IMG/VR virus record: IMGVR_UViG_3300042923_001817
Coordinates: 1-46,517 of that record
DNA from: a virus
DNA: 46,517 nucleotides
Reading direction: 5' to 3' (one strand)
Of this stretch, positions 2,334 to 45,370 are shown piece after piece. Numbering within the stretch: the stretch's first letter is position 1; every line of letters starts with the position of its first letter. The translations under genes were made by a program, and so were the position numbers. The notes beneath the pieces were generated by a model. That model was not told the origin of the DNA. It searched no databases and saw only the letters and a list, made by a program, of their open reading frames with translations.

Positions 2334-2411
2334 ATGAGTAAAAGATATTTAACAGCTGAAAGTGTATGTACCGGGCATCCTGATAAAAAAGGTGGTAGAG
2401 AAATATGTTGA
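2334..2411 (+). pseudogene. metK: Remnant of S-adenosylmethionine synthetase (first ~18 codons)
   Basis: ATG 2334, after GAGGAGATAGGTG, opens a 25-codon frame ending in TGA at 2409-2411. Its first 18 residues (MSKRYLTAESVCTGHPDK) match the N-terminus of methionine adenosyltransferase, including the ATP-binding GHPDK motif. The remaining seven codons are unrelated. A full MetK is about 390 aa, so about 95 percent of the gene is missing. The stop overlaps the ATG of the methyltransferase (2405), so ribosomes ending here could restart on that gene. It may now serve only as a coupled leader peptide. Confidence 0.8.
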
Positions 2412-3646
2412 TAGAAAAATTAAAGACTGAATTATTAATCCCTGCCGATTATAATCCGAGAAAGGACTTAAAGCCTGGTGATCCAGAGTATGAGAAATTA
2501 AAACGATCCCTTGAAGAATTTGGTTATGTAGAACCCGTAATATGGAACAAGGTCACGGGTCATGTGGTAGGCGGTCATCAGCGTTTAAAGGTTCTGCTTA
2601 GCATGGGAATTACCGAAGTAGAATGTGTAATCATTGAGATGGAGGAAGAAAAGGAAAAGGCTCTTAACATTGCACTTAATAAAATCAGTGGAGATTGGGA
2701 TAAAGATAAACTAGCTCTGTTAATCACTGACTTAAATGCCTCAGACTTTGATGTATCTCTGACGGGTTTTGACCCAGGTGAGTTGGATGACCTGTTTAAG
2801 GATTCCCTAAAGGATAAAATAAAAGAAGATGATTTTGATGTGGACAGCGAGCTGAAAAAGCCCGCTGTTTCGCATTTGGGCGATGTTTGGATTTTAGGAC
2901 AGCATCGACTGGTCTGCGGTGATAGTACAAAGAAAGACACTTTTGATGTCTTGATGGATGGGAAAGCTGCTAATCTAGTAGTTACTGATCCACCATACAA
3001 TGTTAACTATGAAGGTAGTGCTGGTAAAATTAAAAATGATAATATGGAAAATGAAGCATTCTATGATTTTCTGCTCGCGGCGTTTAAGAATACCGAAGCA
3101 GCAATGGCAAAGGATGCTTCTATTTATGTGTTCCATGCGGACACGGAAGGACTCAATTTTAGAAAAGCCTTTTCCGATGCAGGATTTTATCTATCTGGTA
3201 CTTGTATTTGGAAAAAGCAATCCCTGGTTCTAGGTCGCTCTCCTTATCAATGGCAGCATGAGCCTGTGCTCTTTGGTTGGAAAAAGAAAGGAAAGCACAA
3301 CTGGTATTCGGATAGAAAACAAACCACCATTTGGGAATTTGAAAAGCCGAAGAAAAACGGTGATCATCCAACCATGAAACCAGTGGCTTTAGTTGCTCAT
3401 CCCATTATGAATTCAAGCCTTACCAATTGCATTGTATTAGATCCCTTCGGTGGTTCTGGAAGTACACTTATTGCCTGTGAGCAGAGCGAACGAATCTGCT
3501 ACACAATAGAGCTGGATGAAAAGTACTGTGATGTAATTGTAAAGAGGTATATTGAACAAATCAGTAGATCAGATGGTGTATTTCTTCTTAGAGATGGTAT
3601 CAGATATAAGTATAGTGATTTGCCGGAGGTGAATATGGATGTGTAA
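2405..3646 (+). CDS. ParB-like domain / DNA adenine-type methyltransferase fusion
   Basis: A 413-aa two-part protein. Residues about 8-135 form a ParB/Srx-like domain, with VVGGHQRL around 54-61 as the nucleotide-binding signature. From about residue 155 comes an amino-methyltransferase: motif IV DPPY at 195-198 precedes the SAM-binding DPFGGSGST near 346-354, the order of beta-class N6-adenine or N4-cytosine enzymes. HPTMKP before motif I is also typical. It methylates phage DNA, probably to evade host restriction. No partner nuclease is visible, so it looks like an orphan enzyme. Its start overlaps the metK remnant and its end overlaps the next methyltransferase by 8 bases, forming one translational unit. 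Confidence 0.9.
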   Translation: MLIEKLKTELLIPADYNPRKDLKPGDPEYEKLKRSLEEFGYVEPVIWNKVTGHVVGGHQRLKVLLSMGITEVECVIIEMEEEKEKALNIALNKISGDWDKDKLALLITDLNASDFDVSLTGFDPGELDDLFKDSLKDKIKEDDFDVDSELKKPAVSHLGDVWILGQHRLVCGDSTKKDTFDVLMDGKAANLVVTDPPYNVNYEGSAGKIKNDNMENEAFYDFLLAAFKNTEAAMAKDASIYVFHADTEGLNFRKAFSDAGFYLSGTCIWKKQSLVLGRSPYQWQHEPVLFGWKKKGKHNWYSDRKQTTIWEFEKPKKNGDHPTMKPVALVAHPIMNSSLTNCIVLDPFGGSGSTLIACEQSERICYTIELDEKYCDVIVKRYIEQISRSDGVFLLRDGIRYKYSDLPEVNMDV

Positions 3647-5570
3647 ATTAACACTCGGCTCACTCTTTGATGGAAGTGGAGGTTTTCCATTGGGAGGTAT
3701 TCTCTGTGGCATTGACCCTTTATGGGCATCTGAAATAGAACCCTTTCCAATAAGGGTTACGACCAAACGTATACCACAGATGAAGCACTATGGAGATATC
3801 AACAAACTAAATGGTGGGGAACTTCCACCTGTCGACATAATAACATTTGGCTCACCCTGCACCGATATGAGTGTGGCTGGGAAAAGAGCTGGTTTGGACG
3901 GAGAGCAATCCGTCCTTTTTTATGAAGCAATCCGGATTGTTAAGGAAATGAGGTGCAAAACGAATGGGCAATATCCAAGATACATTGTTTGGGAAAATGT
4001 CCCCGGAGCATTCTCCTCAAATAAAGGAGAGGACTTTAAAGCAGTCCTCGAAAGCATCGCAGGGGTTAAAGATGAAACCATATCTATTCCTAAACCTAAA
4101 AAATGGCTTAATGCAGGAGAAATGCTGGGAGGAGATTACTCCATTGCATGGAGAACGATTGATGCACAATACTGGGGAGTTCCCCAACGAAGAAAACGCA
4201 TCTTCCTTGTCGCAGATTTTGCAGGCAGGAGTGCCGGAAAAATATTATTTGAGTCAGAAAGCTTGTCAGGGTATTCTTCGCAGAGCATCAAGCCGTGGGA
4301 AGGAACTGCCGAGGGTACTGAAATCGGCACTAGAGCATCAGGCTTTGATGGCTACAATGGTCAACTAACGGGAGATATTTCTTCGACCATTGGTGTTAAT
4401 TGTGGAATGAGTTCCGGTAGAAGTGGTGTGGTACTAAACGACCAAGGCGGAAATCGTATGGATATTACAGAAGATGTAACTTGTACTCTCCGAGCAAAGG
4501 CTAATCACCCACCTTGTGTTATAGAGGCTGCTGTATTTGATAATCACGGATGGGATAATCGCTTTACGGGACCGATTGATGTCGCACCAACAATATCTGC
4601 TACTTATGGAACAGGAGGAAACAATCAACCTTTTGTGGTTAGTGATACACCGAAAACCCTAAAAATCCGATGTGGCTGTGAGGGCGGTGGTAAAGGTGTT
4701 CTTATTCAGAATAACAAATCGGCAACACTATCCTGCAATAATGACCAGACATTATTTGTTCCGAAAGCCTATGGTATCTGCTCTAAAGACAGTAATTCCA
4801 TGAAATCATCCAATCCCAATAGTGGAGTATATGAGGCTGATACTTCTCGTACCATTGATGGAAATGGAGGAAATCCAGCTTGTAATCAAGGTGGTATTGC
4901 TATTGTAGAAAGTTATGCTTTACAAGGCTCCATGATTGGAAGGAAAGACTGCAATGGTCCACAAGGGGATGGTGTAAGTGAGAATATATCATTTACATTA
5001 AATACTGTAGATAAACACGCAGTAGTATATGCTATTGACCGGGAAACTTTTAACTGTGGCCAGAACTATGCAAGGAACCTTGGTATCAGTGATGAAGGCA
5101 TTTCATCAACGCTAAATGCACAAGGACCAAGTGCAGTTGCCACTCCAACTTACTCCTCAAGCAAAGCATCATTTTTTACCAGTGCAGAAACTGAACTTGC
5201 AAATACTCTTGTGGCTACAGATTATAAAGATCCTCCGTTAATTAATGATACCGATGGTACGGATTATATCGTAAGGAGATTGACACCAACAGAGTGTGCA
5301 AGACTTCAAGGCTTCCCGGATTGGTGGTGTAGTGACCTTGGAATAGAAAATCCTACAGATGAGGAGATTGAATTTTGGACTGAGGTCTTTGAAACGCATC
5401 GAAAGATAATCGGGACATCTGCAAAACCAAAATCTCGAAATCAAATTATGAAATGGCTGACAGAACCCCACTCCGATTCTGCGGAATATAAGATGTGGGG
5501 TAATGGTGTTGCCCTGCCCTGCGTTTGTTTTGTACTTGCTGGAATAGTGGAATCTAATTCTAGAATGTAA
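3639..5570 (+). CDS. DNA cytosine-5 methyltransferase with long repeat-bearing recognition region
   Basis: A 643-aa C5 methyltransferase. Motif I is LGSLFDGSGGF near residue 6. Motif IV is GSPCTDMSVAG with catalytic Cys74. Motif VI is WENVPGAF near 120, and motif VIII is WGVPQRRKR near 180. The C-terminal motifs are RRLTPTECARLQGFP near 545 and MWGNGVALP near 615. ATG 3639 has GGAGGTG 8 bases upstream and overlaps the previous gene. The span from about 232 to 500 is an unusually long insert of about seven degenerate units, each with a T[LI] core and a hydrophobic ending such as AVV. It lies where the target recognition domain belongs. The likely role is protecting phage DNA from several host enzymes. 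Confidence 0.92.
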   Translation: MCKLTLGSLFDGSGGFPLGGILCGIDPLWASEIEPFPIRVTTKRIPQMKHYGDINKLNGGELPPVDIITFGSPCTDMSVAGKRAGLDGEQSVLFYEAIRIVKEMRCKTNGQYPRYIVWENVPGAFSSNKGEDFKAVLESIAGVKDETISIPKPKKWLNAGEMLGGDYSIAWRTIDAQYWGVPQRRKRIFLVADFAGRSAGKILFESESLSGYSSQSIKPWEGTAEGTEIGTRASGFDGYNGQLTGDISSTIGVNCGMSSGRSGVVLNDQGGNRMDITEDVTCTLRAKANHPPCVIEAAVFDNHGWDNRFTGPIDVAPTISATYGTGGNNQPFVVSDTPKTLKIRCGCEGGGKGVLIQNNKSATLSCNNDQTLFVPKAYGICSKDSNSMKSSNPNSGVYEADTSRTIDGNGGNPACNQGGIAIVESYALQGSMIGRKDCNGPQGDGVSENISFTLNTVDKHAVVYAIDRETFNCGQNYARNLGISDEGISSTLNAQGPSAVATPTYSSSKASFFTSAETELANTLVATDYKDPPLINDTDGTDYIVRRLTPTECARLQGFPDWWCSDLGIENPTDEEIEFWTEVFETHRKIIGTSAKPKSRNQIMKWLTEPHSDSAEYKMWGNGVALPCVCFVLAGIVESNSRM

Positions 5571-29984: not shown

Positions 29985-31544
29985 ATGAAACGGATAACAA
30001 AGATTGAAGCAAATGAGAAGTTACAGATGACAACTAAAAAACTTCGTGTTGCTGCTTATGCTCGTGTTTCAACAGATAGCCGTGAACAGCTCGCCAGCTT
30101 AGAAGCCCAAAAAAGTCACTATGAAGTCTATATTAAAAACAACCCAGACTGGGAGTATGTTGGCCTTTATTATGATGAGGGTTTATCCGGTACAAACATG
30201 GCAAAACGAGATGGTCTTCTCAGGATGATTTCTGATTGTGAAAAAGGCTTGATTGATTATATCATAATTAAATCCATTAGCCGCTTTGCTAGAAATACTA
30301 CAGAGTGTCTTGAAGCAGTCAGAAAGCTTATAAAGCTTAAGGTTTTTATTTATTTCGAGAAGGAAAACATCAACACCGGTGAAATGGAAAGCGAGTTACT
30401 ACTTACCATTTTCAGTAGCCTTGCTGAAAGTGAATCGGTTTCTATTTCTGAGAATGAGACATGGGCTATTCAGAAAAGGTTCCAAAACGGTACCTTTAAA
30501 ATTGGATATCCGCCATATGGCTATAAGAATGTGAATGGTAAGATGGTTATCGATGAAGCAGAAGCAGAGATTGTAAGATTGGTTTTTACGGAGTGCCTTT
30601 CGGGAAAAGGCTGCTATACAATAGCAAAAGCTCTAAGAGAGAAAAAGGTACCTACAAAAAAAGGTGGTAAATGGAGCTCTAGCGGAGTTAAAGAAATCCT
30701 GAAAAATGAGAAGTACAAAGGAGATGTGCTCTTACAGAAAACATTCACGGATTCGCAGTTTAACAGGCGTTCCAATCACGGCGAAAAGCCACAGTATTAC
30801 GTCAAAGATCATCATGAGGCAATTATTAGCGATGAGGATTATGAAGCAGCACAGTTAATTATTGATCAGCGATCAAAAGAAAAGAATGTTGTAACGGAAG
30901 ATGAGAAGTATCTAAGCCGCTACCCGTTCTCAGGAAAAATAATATGTGCTGAATGCGGCGCCACGTGGAAAAGAAGAACACATACATCTAGCAAGGATAA
31001 ATACTTTACTTACACCTGCAAAACTCATCTGAAGGACAAGAGTAAATGCGGTCAGCTCTTTATCAGGGAAACAGATTTCGAGGTTGCCTTTACTAATATG
31101 ATGAACAAGCTGATTTTTAGTAAAAAGGTTCTTTTACAACCCTTGCTCAATAGCCTGAAAAGTATTAATCAGGTAAGTGCACTTACTCGAATTAACAAGC
31201 TTGAGACAGCCTTGGAACAGAACTTTGATCGAAGGCAGGTTCTTACAAATCTTATTTCAAAGCAATACATTGAGCCCGCACTTTATGCCAAACAGAATAG
31301 CGAGCTTTTAGCTGAAGCTGAGGAGTTGAGAAATGAAAAGGAAACCTTATACCGCTCGGTAAATGGAGAGCTTGAGAATGCAGAAGCTGTGAACAAGTTA
31401 CTAAAGCATATAAACGATAGTACAGGATTTGCAAAATTTGACGCAGAAGCATTTGAGGCACATGTTGACCACATTATAGTTTATAACAGAAGTGAAATTG
31501 GCTTCATGCTAAAGTGTGGATTAAATCTTAAGGAAAGGTTGTGA
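29985..31544 (+). CDS. Large serine recombinase 1
   Basis: A 519-aa recombinase. The resolvase domain has the catalytic Ser29 in AAYARVSTDSREQ and the conserved [10 protein letters not shown]. The recombinase domain begins with IGYPPYGYKNVNGK and contains WSSSGVKEILKNEKYKGD. A zinc ribbon follows (CAECG near 317, then CKTH and KCG), and a coiled coil forms the C-terminus. Such enzymes cut two att sites and rejoin them by subunit rotation. GGAGG ribosome-binding site. It is the first of three tightly linked recombinase genes. Confidence 0.93.
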   Translation: MKRITKIEANEKLQMTTKKLRVAAYARVSTDSREQLASLEAQKSHYEVYIKNNPDWEYVGLYYDEGLSGTNMAKRDGLLRMISDCEKGLIDYIIIKSISRFARNTTECLEAVRKLIKLKVFIYFEKENINTGEMESELLLTIFSSLAESESVSISENETWAIQKRFQNGTFKIGYPPYGYKNVNGKMVIDEAEAEIVRLVFTECLSGKGCYTIAKALREKKVPTKKGGKWSSSGVKEILKNEKYKGDVLLQKTFTDSQFNRRSNHGEKPQYYVKDHHEAIISDEDYEAAQLIIDQRSKEKNVVTEDEKYLSRYPFSGKIICAECGATWKRRTHTSSKDKYFTYTCKTHLKDKSKCGQLFIRETDFEVAFTNMMNKLIFSKKVLLQPLLNSLKSINQVSALTRINKLETALEQNFDRRQVLTNLISKQYIEPALYAKQNSELLAEAEELRNEKETLYRSVNGELENAEAVNKLLKHINDSTGFAKFDAEAFEAHVDHIIVYNRSEIGFMLKCGLNLKERL

Positions 31545-31548
31545 GAGG

Positions 31549-31968
31549 ATGAGCCATATTCCATATGGATATAGAATTGAAAACGGTAAAGCCGTCATTG
31601 ATGAAGAAAAAGCAGATCAAGTAAGGAAACTCTACAAAGGATATCTTTCTGGTCTTGCCTACATGCCTGCCGCAGAAGCAGCTGGACTTAAGCTTTACCA
31701 CAAAGGTGCAAAGAATATGATGCAAAACAAGCATTATCTTGGAAACGATTATTACGTGGCGATAATAGATAAAAAGACATTTGATGCCGCAGAAGCCGAG
31801 CGTGTGAAACGACAGGCTAAGCTTGGAAGAGTTTTTAATGAGAAGCCAGGTAAAGTGAACAAGATTGTTACAGGCTTTATGATGCCAAAGGTTCAATTCA
31901 AATATGAGGACCCTATTAAACAAGCAGAATACGTCTACAGTTTAATAGTTAGCGAGGTGAATGCATGA
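31549..31968 (+). CDS. Recombinase-domain-only protein (no catalytic domain)
   Basis: A 139-aa protein with [20 protein letters not shown] and [15 protein letters not shown], matching the DNA-binding recombinase domain of large serine recombinases. It lacks the resolvase serine domain and the zinc ribbon. It follows recombinase 1 by 4 bases and overlaps recombinase 2 by ATGA, so it is made with them. It is not obviously a broken gene, because it is intact, in frame and coupled. A role as DNA-binding helper or att selector is inferred. Confidence 0.78.
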
Positions 31969-33539
31969 TATCCTTAGCAAGAAATGTTACGGTTATTCCA
32001 GCAAAGAAAATAATCGGTACTCAGAAAGCAACCGGTAAAGTTCAGAAAACACGAGTAGCTGCCTATTGCCGAGTTTCCACAGATAGTGATGAACAGGAAA
32101 GCAGCTACGATACACAGATTGAGCATTATACTACCTATATTAATAGTCACCCGGAATGGGCGTTAGCTGGAATCTACGCCGATGACGGTATCTCCGGAAT
32201 GAATACGAAGAAGCGTGATGAATTTCAGCGCATGATTAATGATTGCAACGACGGTAAGATAGATATGATTATTACCAAGTCCATCAGCCGATTTGCTAGA
32301 AATACAGTTGATTGCCTGAATTACACCAGGGCCCTTAAGAATAAGAATATCGGTGTTTATTTCGAGAAAGAAAACATCAATACACTTGATGCCAAAGGTG
32401 AGGTTCTTATGACAATTATGGCTTCTCTTGCACAGCAAGAAAGCGAGTCATTATCAGCTAACGTTCGTCTAGGCTTGCAGTTCCGATACCAGCAAGGAAA
32501 GGTTCAGGTCAATCATAATTGGTTCTTGGGATATACCAAAGACGAAGACGGTCACCTCATCATTGATCCGGTGCAAGCCGAAGTAGTAAAGCGCATCTAT
32601 AGAGAATACCTTGAAGGCAAGAGCTTCTTACAGATAAAAAGGTCACTTGAGGCCGAGAAAATTCGAAACGGTGCAGGGAATAAAAAGTGGCATGAAAGCA
32701 ATATAAAGCAGATACTTAAGAACGAGAAGTACATCGGGGACGCATTGCTTCAGAAGACTTATACGGTGGATATACTAGATAAGAAGCGAGAAGCCAATAA
32801 GGGTCAGGTTCCTAAATATTATGTAGAGGACAGTCATGAAGCTATTATTCCAAAGGATATCTTCTTAAAGGTACAGGAGGAAATTGCTAGAAGGGCAAAT
32901 CTTACTAACGGGACAACAAAACGTAAACGTATCTATAGCGGGCAATACGCCTTATCCGGGATGGTATTCTGCGCACATTGCGGCGATATCTTCCGCAGGA
33001 TTAAATGGAACAATCGAGGGTGTAAGTCCACTGTTTGGCGCTGCGTCAGTAGGGTTGAAAAAGACGGTCCTGATTGCTCGGCAAGAACTGTTCATGAAGA
33101 ACTGCTCCATGAGGTAGTTATCAAGGCCATAAACGAAGCCTTTCGCGAAAAGGAGACACTCCTTCCACTTTTACGAAAAAATATCGAGAGTAGCTTAGAG
33201 GAGATTAACATTAGTCAGATTGAGGTAATTGATGATCAGATGAAATTAATGCAGCTGGAGTTATTGGCAACGGTCAATTCAAAGAATACCGGTGATGAGC
33301 TTGGTATTGAGATTAGAAGGTTGCGTGATGAGAAGCAGGCCCTTCAAAATGAGAAGGCATTACGACAGGATCTGAAAACTCGAATTGATGAGATGATGCG
33401 TTTCCTTAATGACCTGCCTTGCGAGCTTACTGAATATGAAGAAGAATATGTGAGGACTCTCTTGGAAAAGATTACGGTTTACGATGATCACATCATTATT
33501 GAATTCAAATCAGGCATCGAAATACAAATAGACGAATAA
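31965..33539 (+). CDS. Large serine recombinase 2
   Basis: A 524-aa recombinase with catalytic Ser38 in [23 protein letters not shown] and YFEKENINT. The recombinase domain reads [14 protein letters not shown], where recombinase 1 has PPYGY. The zinc ribbon is [10 protein letters not shown], then WRC and CSARTVHEE; a coiled-coil C-terminus follows. It is clearly paralogous to recombinase 1 but divergent, as in CcrA/CcrB pairs that act together. Start overlaps the previous gene. Confidence 0.93.
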
Positions 33540-36578: not shown

Positions 36579-36845
36579 ATGGCAAATTTTTTAGAAAAGT
36601 TTCAATCTCATAATCGTGAAGTAAGACAGGAAATGATAGATGAAGAAGTGGCAATTGTGCAGGAAGAATATATAGTTAAGGCTGCGGCAGCTTTACTGGA
36701 GGCAAAGGTAAAAGAAGATAAAATCAAAGAATTACTTTCTAAATATTGGGATATAAGACCAAGCGATGCAGCGCTATTTATTCAGAAGGCTAAAGATATA
36801 TATATGGAGGAACAAAAATGTCAAACAACGAAGAACAGGCGTTGA
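36579..36845 (+). CDS. Small helical cargo protein
   Basis: An 88-aa charged helical protein (VRQEMIDEEVAIVQEEYIVKA; EDKIKELLSKYW). It has AAAGGAG before ATG 36579. Its last 28 bases overlap the nuclease gene. The size and coupling suggest an antitoxin-like, adaptor or regulatory partner of the downstream nuclease. No DNA-binding motif is certain. Confidence 0.6.
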   Translation: MANFLEKFQSHNREVRQEMIDEEVAIVQEEYIVKAAAALLEAKVKEDKIKELLSKYWDIRPSDAALFIQKAKDIYMEEQKCQTTKNRR

Positions 36846-37987
36846 AGGATTTCTTGCTAGACATTGATTGCCTGAAACAATTAGATGATTGGACTGATGA
36901 TTTTAACCTGTTTGATGTATTAAGAATTACAAATATGGAAATTCGCCATAGTAACATTCTGGCATGGATTTTTGATCCGAATGAGAATCATGGTTTGGGA
37001 GATTCTTTTATCAAATCTTTCATTACTAAGGTTGTTAGTAAGTGCGACCAGAATAAATATAATGCGTTTGATTTGCTATTACAGGATTTCTATTCTTATC
37101 AGGTTTATAGAGAATCTAATCACATGGATATTGTTCTTGTCTCTCGTGAAGAAAAGACAGCAGTTATTATCGAGAACAAGATTTGGTCGGGAGAGTCCTC
37201 ACATCAGTTAAATGAATACTTAGAGAAAAGTAAGACAGAGTACAAAGATTACAATCAGATTTTGTATGTATTTCTTACTCCCTATGGTAGAGAATCAAGT
37301 GATCCAGATAATTGGATAGCATTTTCATATGAAGAAATAATCGATTCCCTTGAAAGCTCTATTAAAGGAATGAACCTTCGTGATGAGGTTAAGCTGGTGA
37401 TACACAACTATATTGATATTGTGAGGAAGAACATTATGAAAGAAAAAGATGAAAAGTTAGTTAGCATCTGTAATGAAATCTATAACAAGCATAGAACGGC
37501 CCTACGGTTAATTTTTGAAAATGTTAACATTAATAACTCTATAGAGCATGAAATTATATGTGAGACACTTAGAGAACTAAATGATAATGGACAGATTATT
37601 TTTAAGGATGATAATAGTTGGCAGTTTTTCACAGCATCTATGGATGAGTATCTTCCGACCTTAGTAACGATGGATAGTTCATGGGGTACAAATTGGGTTT
37701 ACTATTACTGGTTTGAGAAGTATGAGGATAAGCTATGTATTCATTTTGAACTTGGTGGATGGAATCTAACGGATGAATTAACGAAGAGGACCAACGCATT
37801 AATTGATGCATCAAAAAAGAAGGTAGATGAATATCGTTATAAGAGACTTTACTACAAAGCTGTAAAGCTTTCACAAGATGATTACGAGACAAGCTTAAGA
37901 AATGCTACTAAAGCTTTAGTAAAGAGTGCTCTTGAGAATGAAAAAAAATTGCTATCTATGGTGAAGGAAACAATTGCTGAGTCTTAA
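36818..37987 (+). CDS. PD-(D/E)XK nuclease-superfamily protein (PDDEXK_4-like)
   Basis: A 389-aa protein. The N-terminus has LFDVLRITNMEIRHSNILAW, typical of the family. Catalytic motifs are the aspartate in NHMDIVLVSREEK and VIIENKIW (E-x-K), followed by SSHQLNEYLEK. The later part (YNQILYVFLTPYG) completes the core, and the C-terminal ~180 residues are helical. The superfamily comprises DNA-cleaving enzymes, and stand-alone members occur in defence loci. The overlap with the 88-aa gene suggests joint control. Confidence 0.82.
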   Translation: MSNNEEQALKDFLLDIDCLKQLDDWTDDFNLFDVLRITNMEIRHSNILAWIFDPNENHGLGDSFIKSFITKVVSKCDQNKYNAFDLLLQDFYSYQVYRESNHMDIVLVSREEKTAVIIENKIWSGESSHQLNEYLEKSKTEYKDYNQILYVFLTPYGRESSDPDNWIAFSYEEIIDSLESSIKGMNLRDEVKLVIHNYIDIVRKNIMKEKDEKLVSICNEIYNKHRTALRLIFENVNINNSIEHEIICETLRELNDNGQIIFKDDNSWQFFTASMDEYLPTLVTMDSSWGTNWVYYYWFEKYEDKLCIHFELGGWNLTDELTKRTNALIDASKKKVDEYRYKRLYYKAVKLSQDDYETSLRNATKALVKSALENEKKLLSMVKETIAES

Positions 37988-37991
37988 TGCT

Positions 37992-38076
37992 ATTGATATG
38001 TTCCCTAAAACCTCAAAACCATTGATATGTTTCCCAAAACCTCGAAAACGCTCAAAAACGGTTGATATGTTCCCCT
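37992..38076 (+). repeat. Three direct repeats of TTGATATGTTCCC (right copies)
   Basis: Copies start at 37993, 38022 (one extra T before CCC) and 38062, each followed by an AAAACCTC-like word in the first two. The first, with its preceding A, is a 15-base exact match to the copy at 29675. Spacings are 29 and 40 bases. This could be a recombinase att region or the multi-repeat end of an IS21-type insertion sequence. The third recombinase ends inside the first copy. Confidence 0.65.
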
Positions 38077-39624
38077 TAACCACGACATCAATAATGAGCA
38101 CTCGAGCCATGTGGAGTGCTGTGTATTGTTAAAAAAAATAGAAAAATAAATTGATGACTCCGAAAATCTGTAAAAGATTTTCGGAGTTCCATCTGATTTT
38201 ATTTCAATTCTTTCAACGAAACGATGCAGAATATCAGGAGTAAGCTCATTAAGTTCGAAGATTGTATCCTTTAGACTATATAACTCATCTATTAGGTTTG
38301 TATTATATTTTTCATCGATAAGTATTTTATACTTATCGGATATAGCAGTTAAATTTGATATTTCGTTATCAAGTTCAAAGATAACTGCATTATAATTCTC
38401 TTCTGATATTTGCTCCATTATAAATTTGCGAGTTGCATTGATTTTCTGTTGCATCAAATTATTTAGTTCTTTATCTTGAATTTTCAGTTCTCTTACCACC
38501 TTCATTTTTTCATCAAGAACTTTCTTTTCGAGACCTGCAAGAAATTTTTCGCTTTTAATCTTAGAAAGCATTAATCTGATGTCATCCAATATAGCATCTG
38601 CAAGTTCTGCTTCTTTAATTAAGTGGTCTGAGCATGCTTTTCTTCCAAGTTTATTGAATCTGCCACAAACATAACCCTTTCTGTTTTTCTTGAAATTCAT
38701 ACCATGGCCACAATCATTACAAAAAAGGATATTAGTAAAAAGGTGAATATTTTGCTGAGGTCTGATTTTTTTTCGAGAAGAGATAATGTTCTGAACAGTA
38801 TCAAATACTGTTTTAGTAATGATTGCTTCATGGCAATTCTTAATAACAATATATTCATTTTCATTTTTATCTTTTCTCTTGTCAGAAGTTACTGACACAG
38901 TTTCGCTTTTCCCTTGAACTAAGTCTCCTGTATAATTTGCATTTGTTAATATGTTTCTAACAGAAGAGCCATTCCATTGATTAGATGCGTCTGATTTGCC
39001 AGCTACCTGCCCTGGAGATGGTATATCCTCTTCATAAAGTTCTTTGGCAATTCTGTCAAACCCTTTTCCAGATAAATAATCATTGAAAATTCTCTTCACT
39101 ATCTCTGGAGTAGTATCTTTTTTGATATAAAGCCTTTTATCCTCAACATAGTATCCATAAGGAGCAAAAGAACCTTTGTATTTGCCATTTTGAGCACGAA
39201 TTTTAAAAGCAGATTTCATTCGAGTACTAATACGTTGTGATTCTTGTTCATATAACCATGCAAATAACCCGAAATTGTCGGTATTATTTGTAAGTGTGTT
39301 AATAGCACCATCCAATGTAATAATATTAATCCCATTACTTAAAATGGAATTCCTCAATTGGTAAGACAATTCGCCATTCCTCGCCAGTCGAGAAAGCTCT
39401 TTAGACAGAATCACATCATATTTCTTGGAACTACAATCGTCCATTAATCTTTTAAGATTTGCTCTCTTTTTCGATTTCGTTCCAGACTCAATGTCTATAT
39501 ATGTATCATATAATGTCCAGCCATTATCCTTGATGTACTTATCAAATAGCTGTTGCTGAGTAATTAAGGAGGTTTTTTGCTCCTCTTTATCTGTTGAAAC
39601 TCTTATATATACAGCACATCTCAT
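38005..39624 (-). CDS. Large serine recombinase 3, with altered C-terminus
   Basis: A 539-aa recombinase with catalytic Ser10 in AVYIRVSTDKEEQ and SKELSRLARNG. The recombinase domain has FAPYGYYVEDKR and WNGSSVRNILTNANYTGD. A zinc ribbon CNDCGHGM, then CGRF and CSDH, and a coiled coil follow. It is distant from recombinases 1 and 2. The end seems to run past its natural stop: the last ~30 residues (from SLLMSW on) are encoded by the hairpin-flanked junction and the TTGATATGTTCCC repeats. It may mobilise the AT-rich element to its right. Confidence 0.9.
   Translation of the reverse strand: MRCAVYIRVSTDKEEQKTSLITQQQLFDKYIKDNGWTLYDTYIDIESGTKSKKRANLKRLMDDCSSKKYDVILSKELSRLARNGELSYQLRNSILSNGINIITLDGAINTLTNNTDNFGLFAWLYEQESQRISTRMKSAFKIRAQNGKYKGSFAPYGYYVEDKRLYIKKDTTPEIVKRIFNDYLSGKGFDRIAKELYEEDIPSPGQVAGKSDASNQWNGSSVRNILTNANYTGDLVQGKSETVSVTSDKRKDKNENEYIVIKNCHEAIITKTVFDTVQNIISSRKKIRPQQNIHLFTNILFCNDCGHGMNFKKNRKGYVCGRFNKLGRKACSDHLIKEAELADAILDDIRLMLSKIKSEKFLAGLEKKVLDEKMKVVRELKIQDKELNNLMQQKINATRKFIMEQISEENYNAVIFELDNEISNLTAISDKYKILIDEKYNTNLIDELYSLKDTIFELNELTPDILHRFVERIEIKSDGTPKIFYRFSESSIYFSIFFNNTQHSTWLECSLLMSWLRGTYQPFLSVFEVLGNISMVLRF
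38157..38187 (-). terminator. Hairpin with T-rich tail inside the 3' end of recombinase 3
   Basis: ACTCCGAAAATCT (38157-38169) pairs perfectly with AGATTTTCGGAGT (38175-38187), 13 pairs with a 5-base loop. On the minus strand a T-rich tract follows it. It lies about 150 bases inside the present reading frame, so the original gene may have ended here. It is a good rho-independent terminator. Confidence 0.68.
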
Positions 39625-40098: not shown

Positions 40099-41859
40099 AT
40101 GATAGATTTGATTACTTGTCCTTACTGTAATGCTGAGTATAAGAAAATCACAGCAAACCATTTAGTTAAACATAATATTAAATACCTGGATTATTTAAAG
40201 GAGTATGATAAGAATAAATATTATTTAAAGGTTTTATCCGAATTTATATGGGAGTTTTATAGACCTTGTACAAATAAATATATTGAACAGGTATATAGTA
40301 AAGAGACTCATGGATTTATATGGATAACAAAATATGCAATGGGTAAAGATATTTTGGAAAAAGAAATAATAAAAGCTCAAAAGGAAGCAGTAGAATCAAG
40401 CAGGTTAAATAAGCTGTCTAATACAAGGGGATATCCTTTCACTAAATCCGATATCGTGCAACACCTCAGGAAGGAAAGAACATTAGGAATATATACGTAT
40501 AACGGAGATACAACCTTTTTAACATTTGATATTGACGAAGATAATATGGACTATGTATTAAGTATTTGTAATAGCCTTAAACGATGCAATATAGATGAGA
40601 ATCAGATATTACTAACTTATAGTGGGAATAAAGGTTATCATATTTCTATTTTCTTTAATAAGCCAATATTAATAAAAAAAGTGAAAGAAATGTTTGATTT
40701 ATTTCTTTGGACAATAAGGGGAATTAACAAACTTAGAGAGAATGGTTCTAAAGTTGTGGAGGCGAGAGGTGTATCAAATCAAGCAGTTAAGATTCCTTTT
40801 TCAATCAATAGGAAAAATACTGTTGAGTATAGGAAAATAAACAATTGGAATGACTTGCAATTAAGAATGAAAGAAGGAAAAGGTAATTATTGCTATGCAA
40901 TCGATGAATATGGATGTGAGATTGACACTCTTGATAAAATTACTCATATGCAAAAAGTAGATAGTAGTATGGTTGATAGGATAATTAATGATTTAACGGA
41001 TGATATGGCATTTTTTGATAATTTGTGTAGATATGAAATCAGTCTTAATGATTCTATAAAGAAAATAGAAATAGATTCGTTCAGTATTAATAAAAACGTA
41101 GTATACGAAGGTATAGAAGCATTATTAGATAAGCCAATTGAAGTTAAGGAACGACACACAACATTATTAAAAATAGCTATATATAATAAGTCATATAATA
41201 TGACTGCTAAGGAAAATGAAGATTTTTTAATAAACTTTACAACAGACAAAAAGATGAACCATAAGTTTGAAACAAAGATTGATGTTAATATTAAAGAAAT
41301 AAAATCAATTATCAGAACAATATATTATTCGGAAACGGCTGATAAATATCGAATTTATGATGGAATTAAAAAGCTGTCTTTTACAAAGGATGAAATACTT
41401 GAGATATTATCAATAAAGGACAAGCATCTCAGAAAATTCTATTTTATAATGTTTACGCAATTTAAAATGTTTGGTAATAAAAGAGATAAGCGTTTCTTCT
41501 TAACTTATGAGAGAATAAAGAAATCGGTTAGAATAAATGGAAAAGCTATAAATGATAAGCTATTACAATTAGAGAAACTTAATAAGATTGTGTTTGTAAG
41601 AAAAGGTGAAAAAGATAATGGTGTAGAGAAGATTAGGAATAAGCCGAATATATATATGTTAAAATATAATCTGAATTCTGATGAAACAGATAAGGGATAT
41701 AAACTTTTAAGAGGTGACAAGGAAGCAAATGATAATATAACGTTTTGCAATTTTGAAATGATGTGTGCAAAGGTACTTAGTAAGGTTGAAATTGAAACAC
41801 ATTTTTGTATGCAAAAGACAATATTAAAGTATAAGTATCAGAAATTAGTTGAAGTATAA
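40099..41859 (+). CDS. Zinc-finger / archaeo-eukaryotic-type primase fusion
   Basis: A 586-aa protein. An N-terminal MucR/ROS-like zinc finger has Cys7, Cys10, His21 and His25 (CPYCNAEY, HLVKH). The primase core has the metal-binding FDIDEDN (Asp144, Asp146) and SGNKGYHISIFF (Ser175, His181), followed by AVKIPFSINRK, as in the primases of TOTE-type and plasmid elements. The C-terminal ~150 residues look like winged-helix domains (RIKKSVRINGKAINDKLLQLEKL). There is no helicase domain. It probably makes primers for the replication of a mobile element. Weak ribosome-binding site GAAAG. Confidence 0.8.
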   Translation: MIDLITCPYCNAEYKKITANHLVKHNIKYLDYLKEYDKNKYYLKVLSEFIWEFYRPCTNKYIEQVYSKETHGFIWITKYAMGKDILEKEIIKAQKEAVESSRLNKLSNTRGYPFTKSDIVQHLRKERTLGIYTYNGDTTFLTFDIDEDNMDYVLSICNSLKRCNIDENQILLTYSGNKGYHISIFFNKPILIKKVKEMFDLFLWTIRGINKLRENGSKVVEARGVSNQAVKIPFSINRKNTVEYRKINNWNDLQLRMKEGKGNYCYAIDEYGCEIDTLDKITHMQKVDSSMVDRIINDLTDDMAFFDNLCRYEISLNDSIKKIEIDSFSINKNVVYEGIEALLDKPIEVKERHTTLLKIAIYNKSYNMTAKENEDFLINFTTDKKMNHKFETKIDVNIKEIKSIIRTIYYSETADKYRIYDGIKKLSFTKDEILEILSIKDKHLRKFYFIMFTQFKMFGNKRDKRFFLTYERIKKSVRINGKAINDKLLQLEKLNKIVFVRKGEKDNGVEKIRNKPNIYMLKYNLNSDETDKGYKLLRGDKEANDNITFCNFEMMCAKVLSKVEIETHFCMQKTILKYKYQKLVEV

Positions 41860-42271: not shown

Positions 42272-43312
42272 ATGGATAGTTTGACTTTGAAAGATACAAA
42301 AGAACAGTTTTTAAGTAGTTGTATTGATGGTGATTTTTATGACAGTTCATTAAAAACTTACAAGAGAAAAGTTGAAGTATTTTTTGAATTCTTAACAGAA
42401 GGTTATAGTGTTAATGATAATAATTATAAAGAAGTTCTTCGGGGAATTGATGACAAAGTAATTACGAAAAGCATCGAATTCTATGTAAAAAAGTATGGGA
42501 TTTCTTTTAAAAGTACAATTGATTTATATGTTTCAGTTGTAAAGTCTTACTTTGATTTTATAAACAAAAACATGGGTATTTTTAATGATAATTTTGATAG
42601 TGTTAAGAGTTATGAAGATATAAAAATATCTATTGAGAAAAAAATCAAGGAACTGGAGTTGATTACCAAAGAACAAAAACCCCCTATAGCCGAGCATACA
42701 TTTACTAAAATATTAAACGAATGTAATAAAATTTTAAGTACATATACATTTGAATATATGAATGATAATAAAAATAAACCTAAAAAAAATCCAGTACAAT
42801 TTTTTACTTCTGCATTACTTATTAAAATAATCATGCTTACAGGAATGAAAAACCAAGTAATTGATACTATAAAGTTAAAAGATTATAATTCTGAATTGAA
42901 TTATATTAATATTAATAATTTTGCTATTCATCTACCAAATGATTTAGGAATACAGATGCATTTATATTTACGATTAAGAGATGTACTTGTTAAAGATAAA
43001 AGTGAAGAATACCAACTATTTGTTAAAAAGGATGGGACACCAATAGGTTCATCTTATGATTATGCTTTCAAAACTTTAGATAATATTATTGATAATTCAA
43101 TTGCGGAGAGTGTAGCAAAATATACTATTATGCAAATGATAAAAAAAGGTATGAATATTAGTATTATAAAGTTGCTAACAAAGTTTGGTATCGATAGTTG
43201 CTTACATTGTCAAGAGTTGGTGAACGATGAAAAAACCAATGAAGATATCACGGCCCAAAATAGATATATTGATTCAAAAATAAGAAGCATGGATATATTT
43301 GATTTGTTGTGA
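42272..43312 (+). CDS. Tyrosine-recombinase-like protein lacking catalytic residues
   Basis: A 346-aa protein. The N-terminal helical half (YDSSLKTYKRKVEVFFEFLTEGY and STIDLYVSVVKSYFDFINK) resembles an integrase core-binding domain. The C-terminal part follows the tyrosine-recombinase fold: ALLIKIIMLTGMKNQVIDTIKLKDYN lies where TGLR is expected, but the catalytic arginine is replaced by lysine. KYTIMQMIKKGMNISIIKLLTKFG sits at the HxLRHT box without its H and R. A final tyrosine is in NRYIDSK. It is probably an inactive, DNA-binding relative. Ribosome-binding site TAGGAGACG. Confidence 0.62.
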   Translation: MDSLTLKDTKEQFLSSCIDGDFYDSSLKTYKRKVEVFFEFLTEGYSVNDNNYKEVLRGIDDKVITKSIEFYVKKYGISFKSTIDLYVSVVKSYFDFINKNMGIFNDNFDSVKSYEDIKISIEKKIKELELITKEQKPPIAEHTFTKILNECNKILSTYTFEYMNDNKNKPKKNPVQFFTSALLIKIIMLTGMKNQVIDTIKLKDYNSELNYININNFAIHLPNDLGIQMHLYLRLRDVLVKDKSEEYQLFVKKDGTPIGSSYDYAFKTLDNIIDNSIAESVAKYTIMQMIKKGMNISIIKLLTKFGIDSCLHCQELVNDEKTNEDITAQNRYIDSKIRSMDIFDLL

Positions 43313-43393
43313 GATATAGTATTACATGATAGTTTTCTAATTCTATAAAGAGTGAATGTTTTAGACAGTTATATACTAAAAATAGCGTATGTT

Positions 43394-43430
43394 AAAAGGC
43401 TTTGCATTTATATTGCAGAGCCTTTTGTTT
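43394..43430 (+). terminator. Strong terminator after the recombinase-like gene
   Basis: AAAAGGCTTTGCA (43394-43406) pairs with TGCAGAGCCTTTT (43414-43426), 13 pairs including one G-T, loop of 7, followed by GTTTGTT. Confidence 0.82.
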
Positions 43431-43570
43431 GTTCTGCCTTTCTATAGTTATATCATGCGAGAATTAGCATATGATATCAAAACATGCTTTGAAGTAGGGT
43501 ATTTCATCAATTTAATTGTTGGAATTAAGTGTAATCATGAACTAAAGTGAATTAAACTTGTTTCACGGGA

Positions 43571-43772
43571 ACGCAGACCTCACTTCACGCCCCTTGCTTC
43601 GCAGGGGTTCGCTCGGAAAAATCGCCTTGATGGACCAGGCGACCAGAGCAAGCTCTTTTTTTCCGAGCCGTTCCGTTCGGTCTGCGTCACTTCGTTCAGC
43701 AGAGAAAAATTGTTCTTCCCCCTCTCTTAAAAACGATAGGGGTCAAAACAATTTTTAGTTGCCTTTCGGCAA
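43571..43772 (+). other. Dense inverted-repeat region, origin-like (replication or transfer)
   Basis: This GC-richer island in AT-rich DNA contains nested and adjacent inverted repeats. They are: ACGCAGACC (43571-43579)/GGTCTGCGT (43679-43687); CCCCTTGC/GCAGGGG (43590-43607); GCTCGGAAAAA (43611-43621)/TTTTTCCGAGC (43658-43668); CGCCT/AGGCG (43623-43641); AAAAATTGTT (43705-43714)/AACAATTTTT (43747-43756) with an inner C/G stem; and TTGCC TTTC GGCAA (43759-43772). Such clusters mark oriT, single-strand origins or structured RNAs. An open frame across it is an artefact. Confidence 0.6.
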
Positions 43773-43848
43773 CATGCATTATTCCTACGCTATTTATATT
43801 TATTTGAAAAGAGCAAAATATATCATTACCAAAGAGGAGGTGTTATAA

Positions 43849-44451
43849 ATTAGAAAATCACATTATATAAACAAATTAACAAGCAAAGATGTTAATTTGT
43901 TAAAAGCATTTAGTAGAGTTGGCTACCTTTCTTCAGGCCAATTAAGAGGAGATTTAGATATTGCAGATAGGCGAGTTACTAATTTCGTGCGTGACGGTTA
44001 TATTGAAAAGGTTCCATTTATCGATAAAAAATCAAAAAACATAGAATTTGCATATCGATTAACTGATAAAGGTAAAACTTTATGCTCCAATCAACTACAA
44101 GTTGAAAGTTTCTATCGAAGTTCTTCAGCCATCCATGACCTTGCATTGGCGGACAAGTATTTTACTATAGATAAAGACCTTAGAGATAGCTGGATAACCG
44201 AGAGTCAATGGAGAGGTCGGTTTGAAGAATATTTAAATGACTTGCATAACAAAGATTGTGACAGGTGGGAGGAGTTGTATGACCAATTGAAGGAAGGTCT
44301 CATAAGTCCACCAGATGGTGGTTATGTGAACGGCGAGGGAGTTGAGATTGCATTGGAAGTCATAACGAGTAGTTACGGGGAGGCTGAGCTATTAGCAAAG
44401 GAGAATTTTGTACAGACACTTGAAGTAGTATACAACCAAATTAGGGTTTAG
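43849..44451 (+). CDS. Winged-helix protein with nuclease-like C-terminus (replication-relaxation-like)
   Basis: A 200-aa protein. The best start is ATT 43849, 8 bases after GAGGAGG, because the coding-like RKSHYINKLTSKDVNLLKAF lies before the first standard start (TTG 43897). The N-terminal ~75 residues form a winged helix (LLKAFSRVGYLSSGQLRG; VTNFVRDGYIEKV). The C-terminus has SPPDGGY and EIALEVITSSYGE, resembling a PD-(D/E)XK core without a clear lysine. This layout recalls replication-relaxation proteins of mobile elements. It follows the origin-like region, so a role there is likely but unproved. Confidence 0.62.
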   Translation: MRKSHYINKLTSKDVNLLKAFSRVGYLSSGQLRGDLDIADRRVTNFVRDGYIEKVPFIDKKSKNIEFAYRLTDKGKTLCSNQLQVESFYRSSSAIHDLALADKYFTIDKDLRDSWITESQWRGRFEEYLNDLHNKDCDRWEELYDQLKEGLISPPDGGYVNGEGVEIALEVITSSYGEAELLAKENFVQTLEVVYNQIRV

Positions 44452-44464
44452 ATTGGAGGTTTAA

Positions 44465-45370
44465 ATGATGACAAATAAGGACAAAGAGGAGGCTTGCAGA
44501 ACGTTTGAGAGCTATATTAAGCTAATATATTGGTTTGGTCATGGTATAATGATGTCAATTCATGTTCAGCAGTATATGGAGCGATTTGAGGGCAAAAACA
44601 AGACACAGGTTTGGAGAGATATACGGAAACTACAATCATCCGAGCTATTGGATGTTAGTAAAGTATTTAATAATAATTATGTAAAACTAAAAAAGTATTC
44701 GTTGAGATACCTGTTGGATAAAGCAAGTTCCAAGGATACTAAATCGGTTAACGTTGGTTTTACAGCGATTAAGAGGTCAGCATTCATTAATGAATTTATA
44801 TTGAGGTATCCCTTGAAAGCTGAAAATATAGATGATGCTATAAGCTATTATCATTCCTTTACTACATTAATAAATAAGGACAAACAGAATTCAACTATTT
44901 TACAAAAAGTTAAAAATGGGAATAAAGAGATAAAAAATGAAATTGAGAATCTGGATGCATTGGCTACACAACAGATGAAGAATTTACAGAGTAAAATACC
45001 AGGTATAAAAATTGAAAAACTTAATCGCTTTAACTTGAATAACATGCAGAGTAGAAACATTTACATTAGTTCTATAAAAGAGGATATTGTTAATGTAGTC
45101 TTTTTAGACCTTAATGACAGTTATAATGCAACTAAATTGGCAGAATCATTCGAGGAAGTATATATGTATCTTTCAAGTCTTTTAACTGATAAATTATTTG
45201 TATTCTCTCTCGTTGTATCTGATAATGATAACGTAATTAGGATAAAAAAAATAACAACACGGTTAACAAACATTTTGATGAGTAAACATCTTTGTGGATT
45301 TTTCAAGTTTAAAATTTTAGACCTAAATATTCGGGCAAAGGTTTTCAGTAATATGAAAGTATTGTTTTGA
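44465..45370 (+). CDS. Unrecognised protein, probable winged helix plus coiled coil
   Basis: A 301-aa protein 13 bases after the previous stop, with GGAGG before ATG 44465, so it forms an operon with it. The N-terminus (MSIHVQQYMERFEGKNKTQVWRDIRKL) is helix-turn-helix-like. The centre (about 155-180) is a coiled coil, and the C-terminal half is alpha/beta with ISSIKEDIVNVVFLDLNDSYN. I do not recognise the family. It may be a partner of the preceding protein at the structured region. Confidence 0.55.
   Translation: MMTNKDKEEACRTFESYIKLIYWFGHGIMMSIHVQQYMERFEGKNKTQVWRDIRKLQSSELLDVSKVFNNNYVKLKKYSLRYLLDKASSKDTKSVNVGFTAIKRSAFINEFILRYPLKAENIDDAISYYHSFTTLINKDKQNSTILQKVKNGNKEIKNEIENLDALATQQMKNLQSKIPGIKIEKLNRFNLNNMQSRNIYISSIKEDIVNVVFLDLNDSYNATKLAESFEEVYMYLSSLLTDKLFVFSLVVSDNDNVIRIKKITTRLTNILMSKHLCGFFKFKILDLNIRAKVFSNMKVLF

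Follow-up and report, generated by a model that had tools for sequence, protein, structure and literature searches.

In the tcpK-oriT-tcpM region of pCW3 from Clostridium perfringens, the transfer origin, next to an unusual relaxase, serves as the binding site of a winged-helix protein (PMC6137059). The available sections of that report describe an oriT with direct and inverted repeats, bound by TcpK, with a transfer locus present (PMC6137059). Frpo elements are single-strand promoters in leading regions, and new candidates for them were sought by their -35 and -10 consensus, as stated in the accessible part of the source (PMC11541004). Judged from these sections, the pCW3 relaxosome region, with a noncoding site next to a winged-helix gene, is the nearest published arrangement found to the locus analyzed here; the open-licence literature, as far as it was covered, held no recognizable description of the element itself. 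The locus lies in IMG/VR virus record IMGVR_UViG_3300042923_001817, and "the window" denotes the whole stretch of that record that was analyzed, positions 1 to 46,517 (46,517 nucleotides).

The subject of this study is a folded core of 117 bases (43571 to 43687, no strand assigned) in which a 9-bp outer stem surrounds a branched interior. Unlike in the pCW3 region, no direct repeats (iteron-like or oriT-like) flank the core, no transfer genes were found among the 12 proteins tested, gene 1, the gene downstream of the core, has no TcpK match, and conservation of the core does not extend to the recombinase-like gene. As far as the accessible accounts describe Frpo and ssi sites, the core is like them in being an imperfect hairpin in noncoding DNA upstream of co-oriented mobile-element genes, but no -35/-10 pair was found in it, and within its branched interior a single stem carries both hairpins 2a and 2b. 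The core is therefore not filed as an oriT or an Frpo: the window resembles pCW3 in gene order, but the genes that define the pCW3 arrangement were not found, the recombinase-like neighbor is not shared with the second locus, and there is no hexamer pair. With structured RNAs of the Rfam type it has in common a stem-rich noncoding stretch whose shape is conserved while its stems change; it differs in having no family match, few wobble pairs, and no visible control of a ribosome site or terminator. Retron msr-msd RNA, in which an outer stem closes inner hairpins 5' of effector genes, is similar in outline, but no reverse transcriptase was found among the neighboring proteins tested.

Most of the first 33.5 kb of the virus record is prophage, has about 40% GC, and encodes terminase, portal, and lysis proteins as well as serine recombinases; from 34.5 kb the DNA is AT rich (about 26 to 36% GC), and the core lies inside this part. 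Serine recombinases of 519, 139 (fragment-like), and 524 amino acids stand in a row at 29985 to 33539, a third full-length one is encoded on the minus strand at 38005 to 39624, and together they border the shift in GC from about 40% to about 30%. Within the prophage, two neighboring DNA methyltransferase genes, one of the N6/N4 type with a ParB-like N terminus and one of the C5 type, occupy 2405 to 5570. A nuclease-like PDDEXK_4 protein (36818 to 37987), matching the candidate defence family PDC-S26 (E 1.5e-111), adjoins proteins without known domains. The primase-polymerase-like protein encoded at 40099 to 41859, an archaeo-eukaryotic primase-like (TOTE/PrimPol) protein, has distant plasmid relatives in 29 records (26 Staphylococcus, 2 Mammaliicoccus, and 1 Macrococcoides). 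Small staphylococcal plasmids with such relatives show no annotated Rep, and pC15, a phage-like Mammaliicoccus plasmid, carries a relative as well.

Upstream of the core, a protein weakly similar to tyrosine recombinases is encoded at 42272 to 43312. TcpM, whose gene flanks the pCW3 site on the side away from tcpK, is also a tyrosine-recombinase-like protein. The protein in the window has a weak XerC match (E 0.006), and by eye the usual Arg/His/Tyr catalytic residues are missing; relatives were sought in plasmids and viral contigs and none was found, nor was the comparison of its gene with the divergent gene of locus L019 significant (z 1.8). Pfam searches for a relaxase, a rolling-circle Rep, a coupling protein, or a type IV secretion protein gave no match in any of the 12 proteins tested in the last part of the window, beginning at 33.6 kb, the range to which these negatives apply; the window stops 1.1 kb past gene 2, and a relaxase may lie beyond it.

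An earlier note, made from the letters of the window, had described nested inverted repeats in a GC-richer patch at 43571 to 43772, and both observations are borne out. Among the repeats, an 11-nt pair (43611-43621/43658-43668) and a 9-nt pair (43571-43579/43679-43687) match perfectly and a 22-nt pair is 82% complementary, and the core has 58% GC in surroundings of 26 to 36%. As one unit the stretch did not hold together: the core 43571 to 43687 is conserved, but the two accessory hairpins beyond it differ in sequence and size in a second locus. No match to an insertion sequence end or to coding DNA, the finding that the note had named as counterevidence, came to light.

Read inward, the core consists of the outer stem (plus-strand arms ACGCAGACC at 43571 to 43579 and GGTCTGCGT at 43679 to 43687), a 2x2 mismatch, two more pairs, and then hairpin 1 (43590 to 43607, plus strand; from the fold and comparison with the second locus) and an 11-bp stem (43611 to 43668 overall, plus strand) topped by hairpins 2a (43622 to 43642) and 2b (43645 to 43656), both given on the plus strand. 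On the 5' side of the junction (43578 to 43584, plus strand) the letters are CCTCACT, of which CC is in the stem, TC is mismatched, and AC is paired; on the 3' side (43672 to 43680, plus strand), in TCCGTTCGG, GT is paired, TC is mismatched, and GG is in the stem. In minus-strand letters, this 2x2 loop is GA/GA. In the window, seven T's lie inside the core 3' of hairpin 2b.

Folding of the 221 nt from 43560 to 43780 gave z scores of -6.4 (plus) and -6.3 (minus), with none of 200 shuffles as good. For the core by itself the scores were -4.6 (plus) and -5.0 (minus) with RNA energies and -5.2 (plus) and -6.4 (minus) with DNA energies, and no shuffle was as good in any of these four sets of 300. 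The core region is the lowest in energy of 1,853 windows of 200 nt scanned; its GC-corrected energy is about -2.5 standard deviations, other windows reach -3.4, and it is thus not the most extreme. GC-corrected fold energy alone does not make it unique in the window; the case for the core comes from the second locus. The covariance models of Rfam 15 gave no family at the gathering score in the window, and five matches, at chance level, at an E of up to 10 for 43540 to 43850. A DNA match of the core was sought in phage and plasmid collections without result.

The second locus, L018, is unrelated mobile DNA in the clostridial genome G081, in which 131 nt (2226 to 2096, minus strand) 5' of a gene 1 homolog fold into the same arrangement as the core of the window. 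A comparison of the outer stems by eye found 7 of the 9 pairs replaced on both sides, the counterparts of the 5' and 3' arms being GGAACAGCC and GGCTGTTCC, and the two inner pairs (CC/GG) kept. Beyond these inner pairs the junction, with the same letters CCTCACT and TCCGTTCGG on its two sides, is the sole sequence kept; the other stems have, by eye, no sequence in common. The core lies just upstream of the gene 1 homologs in both loci, in the same orientation as the genes, and the L018 element ends 46 nt 5' of the start codon.

R1, a search model built from the window alone as two copies of the core, under a given structure with hairpin 1 one base off register (two nonstandard pairs), aligned L018 2096 to 2226 (minus strand) end to end in a 6.8-kb search with filters off, scoring 21.1 bits at an E of 0.0004; with default filters over 90 kb it did not recover this instance. 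R1 also gave 23.7 bits to the minus strand of the very core from which it was built, as inverted repeats read much alike on both strands. The 21.1 bits alone are therefore not decisive; the arms, the junction, and the position together are. Apart from gene 1, the only protein common to both loci is holin-like. The primase and recombinase-like genes of the window have no match in G081, and the plasmid-like neighborhood is therefore not part of the conserved unit.

How often such a junction arises by itself can be read from 54 distinct matches to the junction pattern, collected from three motif searches and all loci, of which the window and G081 alone have pairing arms. Beyond the junction 7 of 7 bases pair in these two; among the other 52 there are at most four in a row (none in 33, one in 11, two in 7, and four in 1). 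The stricter junction pattern matched only G081 among 391 genomes, and its reversed control had no match among the genomes listed; the looser pattern matched in 27 of 398 genomes, with arms only in G081. The second locus and this motif null together rule out a chance or coding origin. The stems are genuine, and the core is a conserved folded nucleic acid element.

Further instances were sought widely. The 391 genomes represent the class of genome G001, were chosen via locus L017 (Clostridiaceae), and partly overlap the sample of the phylum. A second model, R2, comprised three rows, one of them the minus strand of the window core, and served as a search model, not as evidence of covariation; with eight candidates scored per genome it returned, from the 391 genomes, G081 and, with an E of 0.038 over 35 nt, G013, a match taken as chance. 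A gene 1 query of these genomes had G081 as its single match, and the A4 query of the 398 phylum genomes likewise found only G081. Six genomes of the order yielded G081 and a weak match in G109, and three further ones yielded no instance. Protein scans found none in viral contigs; in genome contigs they gave two winged-helix-like matches, in L016 and L017, the latter rejected by eye as a Fic protein. Three pattern scans of viral contigs returned 13, 5, and 23 stretches, every one judged a chance match; those of the first scan were compared by blastn only, and arms were checked for the matches to long motifs. With exact motifs, few candidates scored per genome, and single-sequence models, everything searched thus contained two instances.

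Gene 1 (43849 to 44451, plus strand), which is co-conserved with the core, encodes a predicted winged-helix protein of 200 amino acids. It probably starts at a rare ATT codon, directly preceded by an in-frame TAA and with the ribosome-site-like AAAGAGGAGG upstream. Its product shares an N-terminal RKSxYIxKL with the relative in L018, to which it is 29% identical over 193 amino acids (global z 17.9). The model has a helix-helix-strand-strand order with block pLDDT values of 53 to 74 over residues 11 to 80; the AlphaFold models are of low quality overall (mean pLDDT 40 and 50), and a fold search with them gave nothing at an E of up to 0.001. Solved structures searched by sequence, with gene 1 or its profile at an E of up to 10, included none naming TcpK. 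A weak relative (hhalign probability 67%) in locus L021 is accompanied by genes that by eye are integrase-like and repressor-like and by a HerA/FtsK-type gene. Gene 2 (44465 to 45370, plus strand; 301 amino acids) matches in place and approximate size the gene that follows gene 1 in L018 after 15 nt, but neither BLAST nor hhalign nor a shuffled alignment (global z -0.2) showed homology between the two.

The earlier note had called these genes a winged-helix/nuclease-like pair. Predicted fold order and the weak relative favor the first term for gene 1, and the second is unsupported. Its suggestion of an oriT, a single-strand origin, or a structured RNA has the support of the second locus as far as a structured noncoding element beside a winged-helix gene is concerned; no relaxase, Rep, or type IV secretion protein appeared among the 12 proteins tested, and no iterons beside the core.

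Downstream of the core, a long accessory hairpin (43705 to 43756, no strand assigned; arms 43705-43726/43735-43756 of 22 nt, 82% complementary, with the outer 10 nt perfect) is without a counterpart of like size in L018. A small one (43758 to 43773, no strand assigned; GTTGCCTTTCGGCAAC) corresponds to a different small hairpin in a similar place there, and for neither are sequence and size kept. The 3' arm of the long hairpin contains AGGGGTCAAAACAAT (43738 to 43752), of which 14 of 15 letters recur at 4876 to 4890 of L015, a Paenibacillus plasmid locus, upstream of a distant gene 1 relative. The shared stretch, AGGGGTCA(A/G)AACAAT, is not clearly present in L018; as several lengths were tried and 1 of 100 shuffles reached the match, its sharing between the window and L015 is suggestive only.

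Several observations bear on whether the core acts as DNA or as RNA. Structured RNA usually has more wobble pairs than the 1 of 43 and 1 of 47 (G-U or G-T) seen in the two loci. In both loci the minus strand, the one that faces the genes' coding strand, gives a slightly better fold, by 3 to 7 kcal/mol, with RNA and with DNA energies. A probable reason is that it reads GA/GA where the plus strand has the conserved TC/TC mismatch; both RNA and DNA accommodate tandem G-A pairs stably. No promoter match was found on the plus strand upstream of the core in the window, and in neither locus does the core sequester a ribosome site. Few wobble pairs, the better minus-strand fold, and the lack of a window promoter and of sequestration therefore lean toward a folded single-strand DNA site, and we put at roughly 40% the probability that the core is a cis-acting site of this kind on a mobile replicon, oriT-like or strand-initiation-like. 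Two loci with rewritten stems, the linkage to gene 1, the AT-rich mobile setting with a plasmid-linked primase, and the genes around the weak L021 relative speak for it; against it, the instances number only two, the plasmid-like neighborhood is not conserved, no direct repeats flank the core, the L021 link is weak, and co-orientation 5' of gene 1 fits a leader RNA equally. Inverted repeats are present, and no nick site can be assigned. An origin is a proposal, given that the search for relaxase and transfer genes came up empty, and a structured RNA, whether a leader or a noncoding one, follows closely in likelihood.

We infer that the core would act as DNA, that the gene 1 protein would bind it, and that transfer or strand initiation would result. 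When the DNA is single stranded, as in transfer or in synthesis of the lagging or complementary strand, or when it is extruded from a supercoil, 43571 to 43687 may form the branched hairpin. The winged-helix protein would recognize this hairpin by its shape and conserved mismatched junction and could help to load a processing or priming activity, making the core an oriT-like or strand-initiation-like site. Somewhat doubtful is the broader proposition of a two-part mobile module, in which a branched RNA or single-stranded DNA with a fixed mismatched junction would be read by shape by an adjacent, dedicated winged-helix protein, with the pair movable between unrelated prophage-like and plasmid-like settings and its second gene exchangeable.

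The rival to be taken most seriously, itself short of even odds, is a structured RNA from either strand: it could be a leader that regulates the gene 1 operon in cis, or an independent noncoding RNA with gene 1 as its partner. A position directly 5' of gene 1, co-oriented, and a fold that two loci preserve through compensatory changes ahead of this gene are what such an RNA would show; fold z scores of -4.6 to -6.2 with RNA energies and a conserved mismatched junction that the minus strand turns into a tandem G-A motif agree with it, as does a 9/12 promoter match upstream of the element in L018 (2301 to 2274, minus strand). Against these stand the missing plus-strand promoter match in the window, the scarcity of wobble pairs, the chance-level Rfam result at an E of up to 10, the lack in both loci of ribosome-site cover and of a terminator-like site after the core on the operon strand, and the seven T's after hairpin 2b, which might end a plus-strand transcript inside the core.

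A single-strand promoter of the Frpo kind, whose folded entering strand recruits RNA polymerase for early operon transcription after transfer, would account for a large hairpin directly 5' of co-oriented genes on a mobile element, but is very unlikely given that 43300 to 43900 contains no sigma-70-like hexamer pair on the plus strand. A site that serves the adjacent prophage, in packaging, attachment, or another role, which the terminase, portal, and lysis genes of the virus record and the holin and amidase genes of the second contig might suggest, is highly improbable: the core lies about 10 kb beyond the serine recombinases at 29985 to 33539 in DNA of different GC, the loci share only the holin-like protein besides gene 1, and there is no tRNA at the site. 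A chance cluster of hairpins or an insertion sequence end, for which one could cite the abundance of short stems and a GC-corrected energy that by itself does not stand out in the window, is scarcely credible beside a second locus with the same fold on replaced stems, 52 chance motif matches without such arms, and no DNA match in the phage and plasmid collections.

Sites in DNA or RNA that are read by shape and have a dedicated winged-helix partner are few, and the two loci with their conserved junction provide a short, testable construct. If the core is an RNA, it would represent an unlisted family whose protein partner is already named. If it is an origin, it would represent an unannotated route for the transfer or double-strand conversion of clostridial mobile elements.
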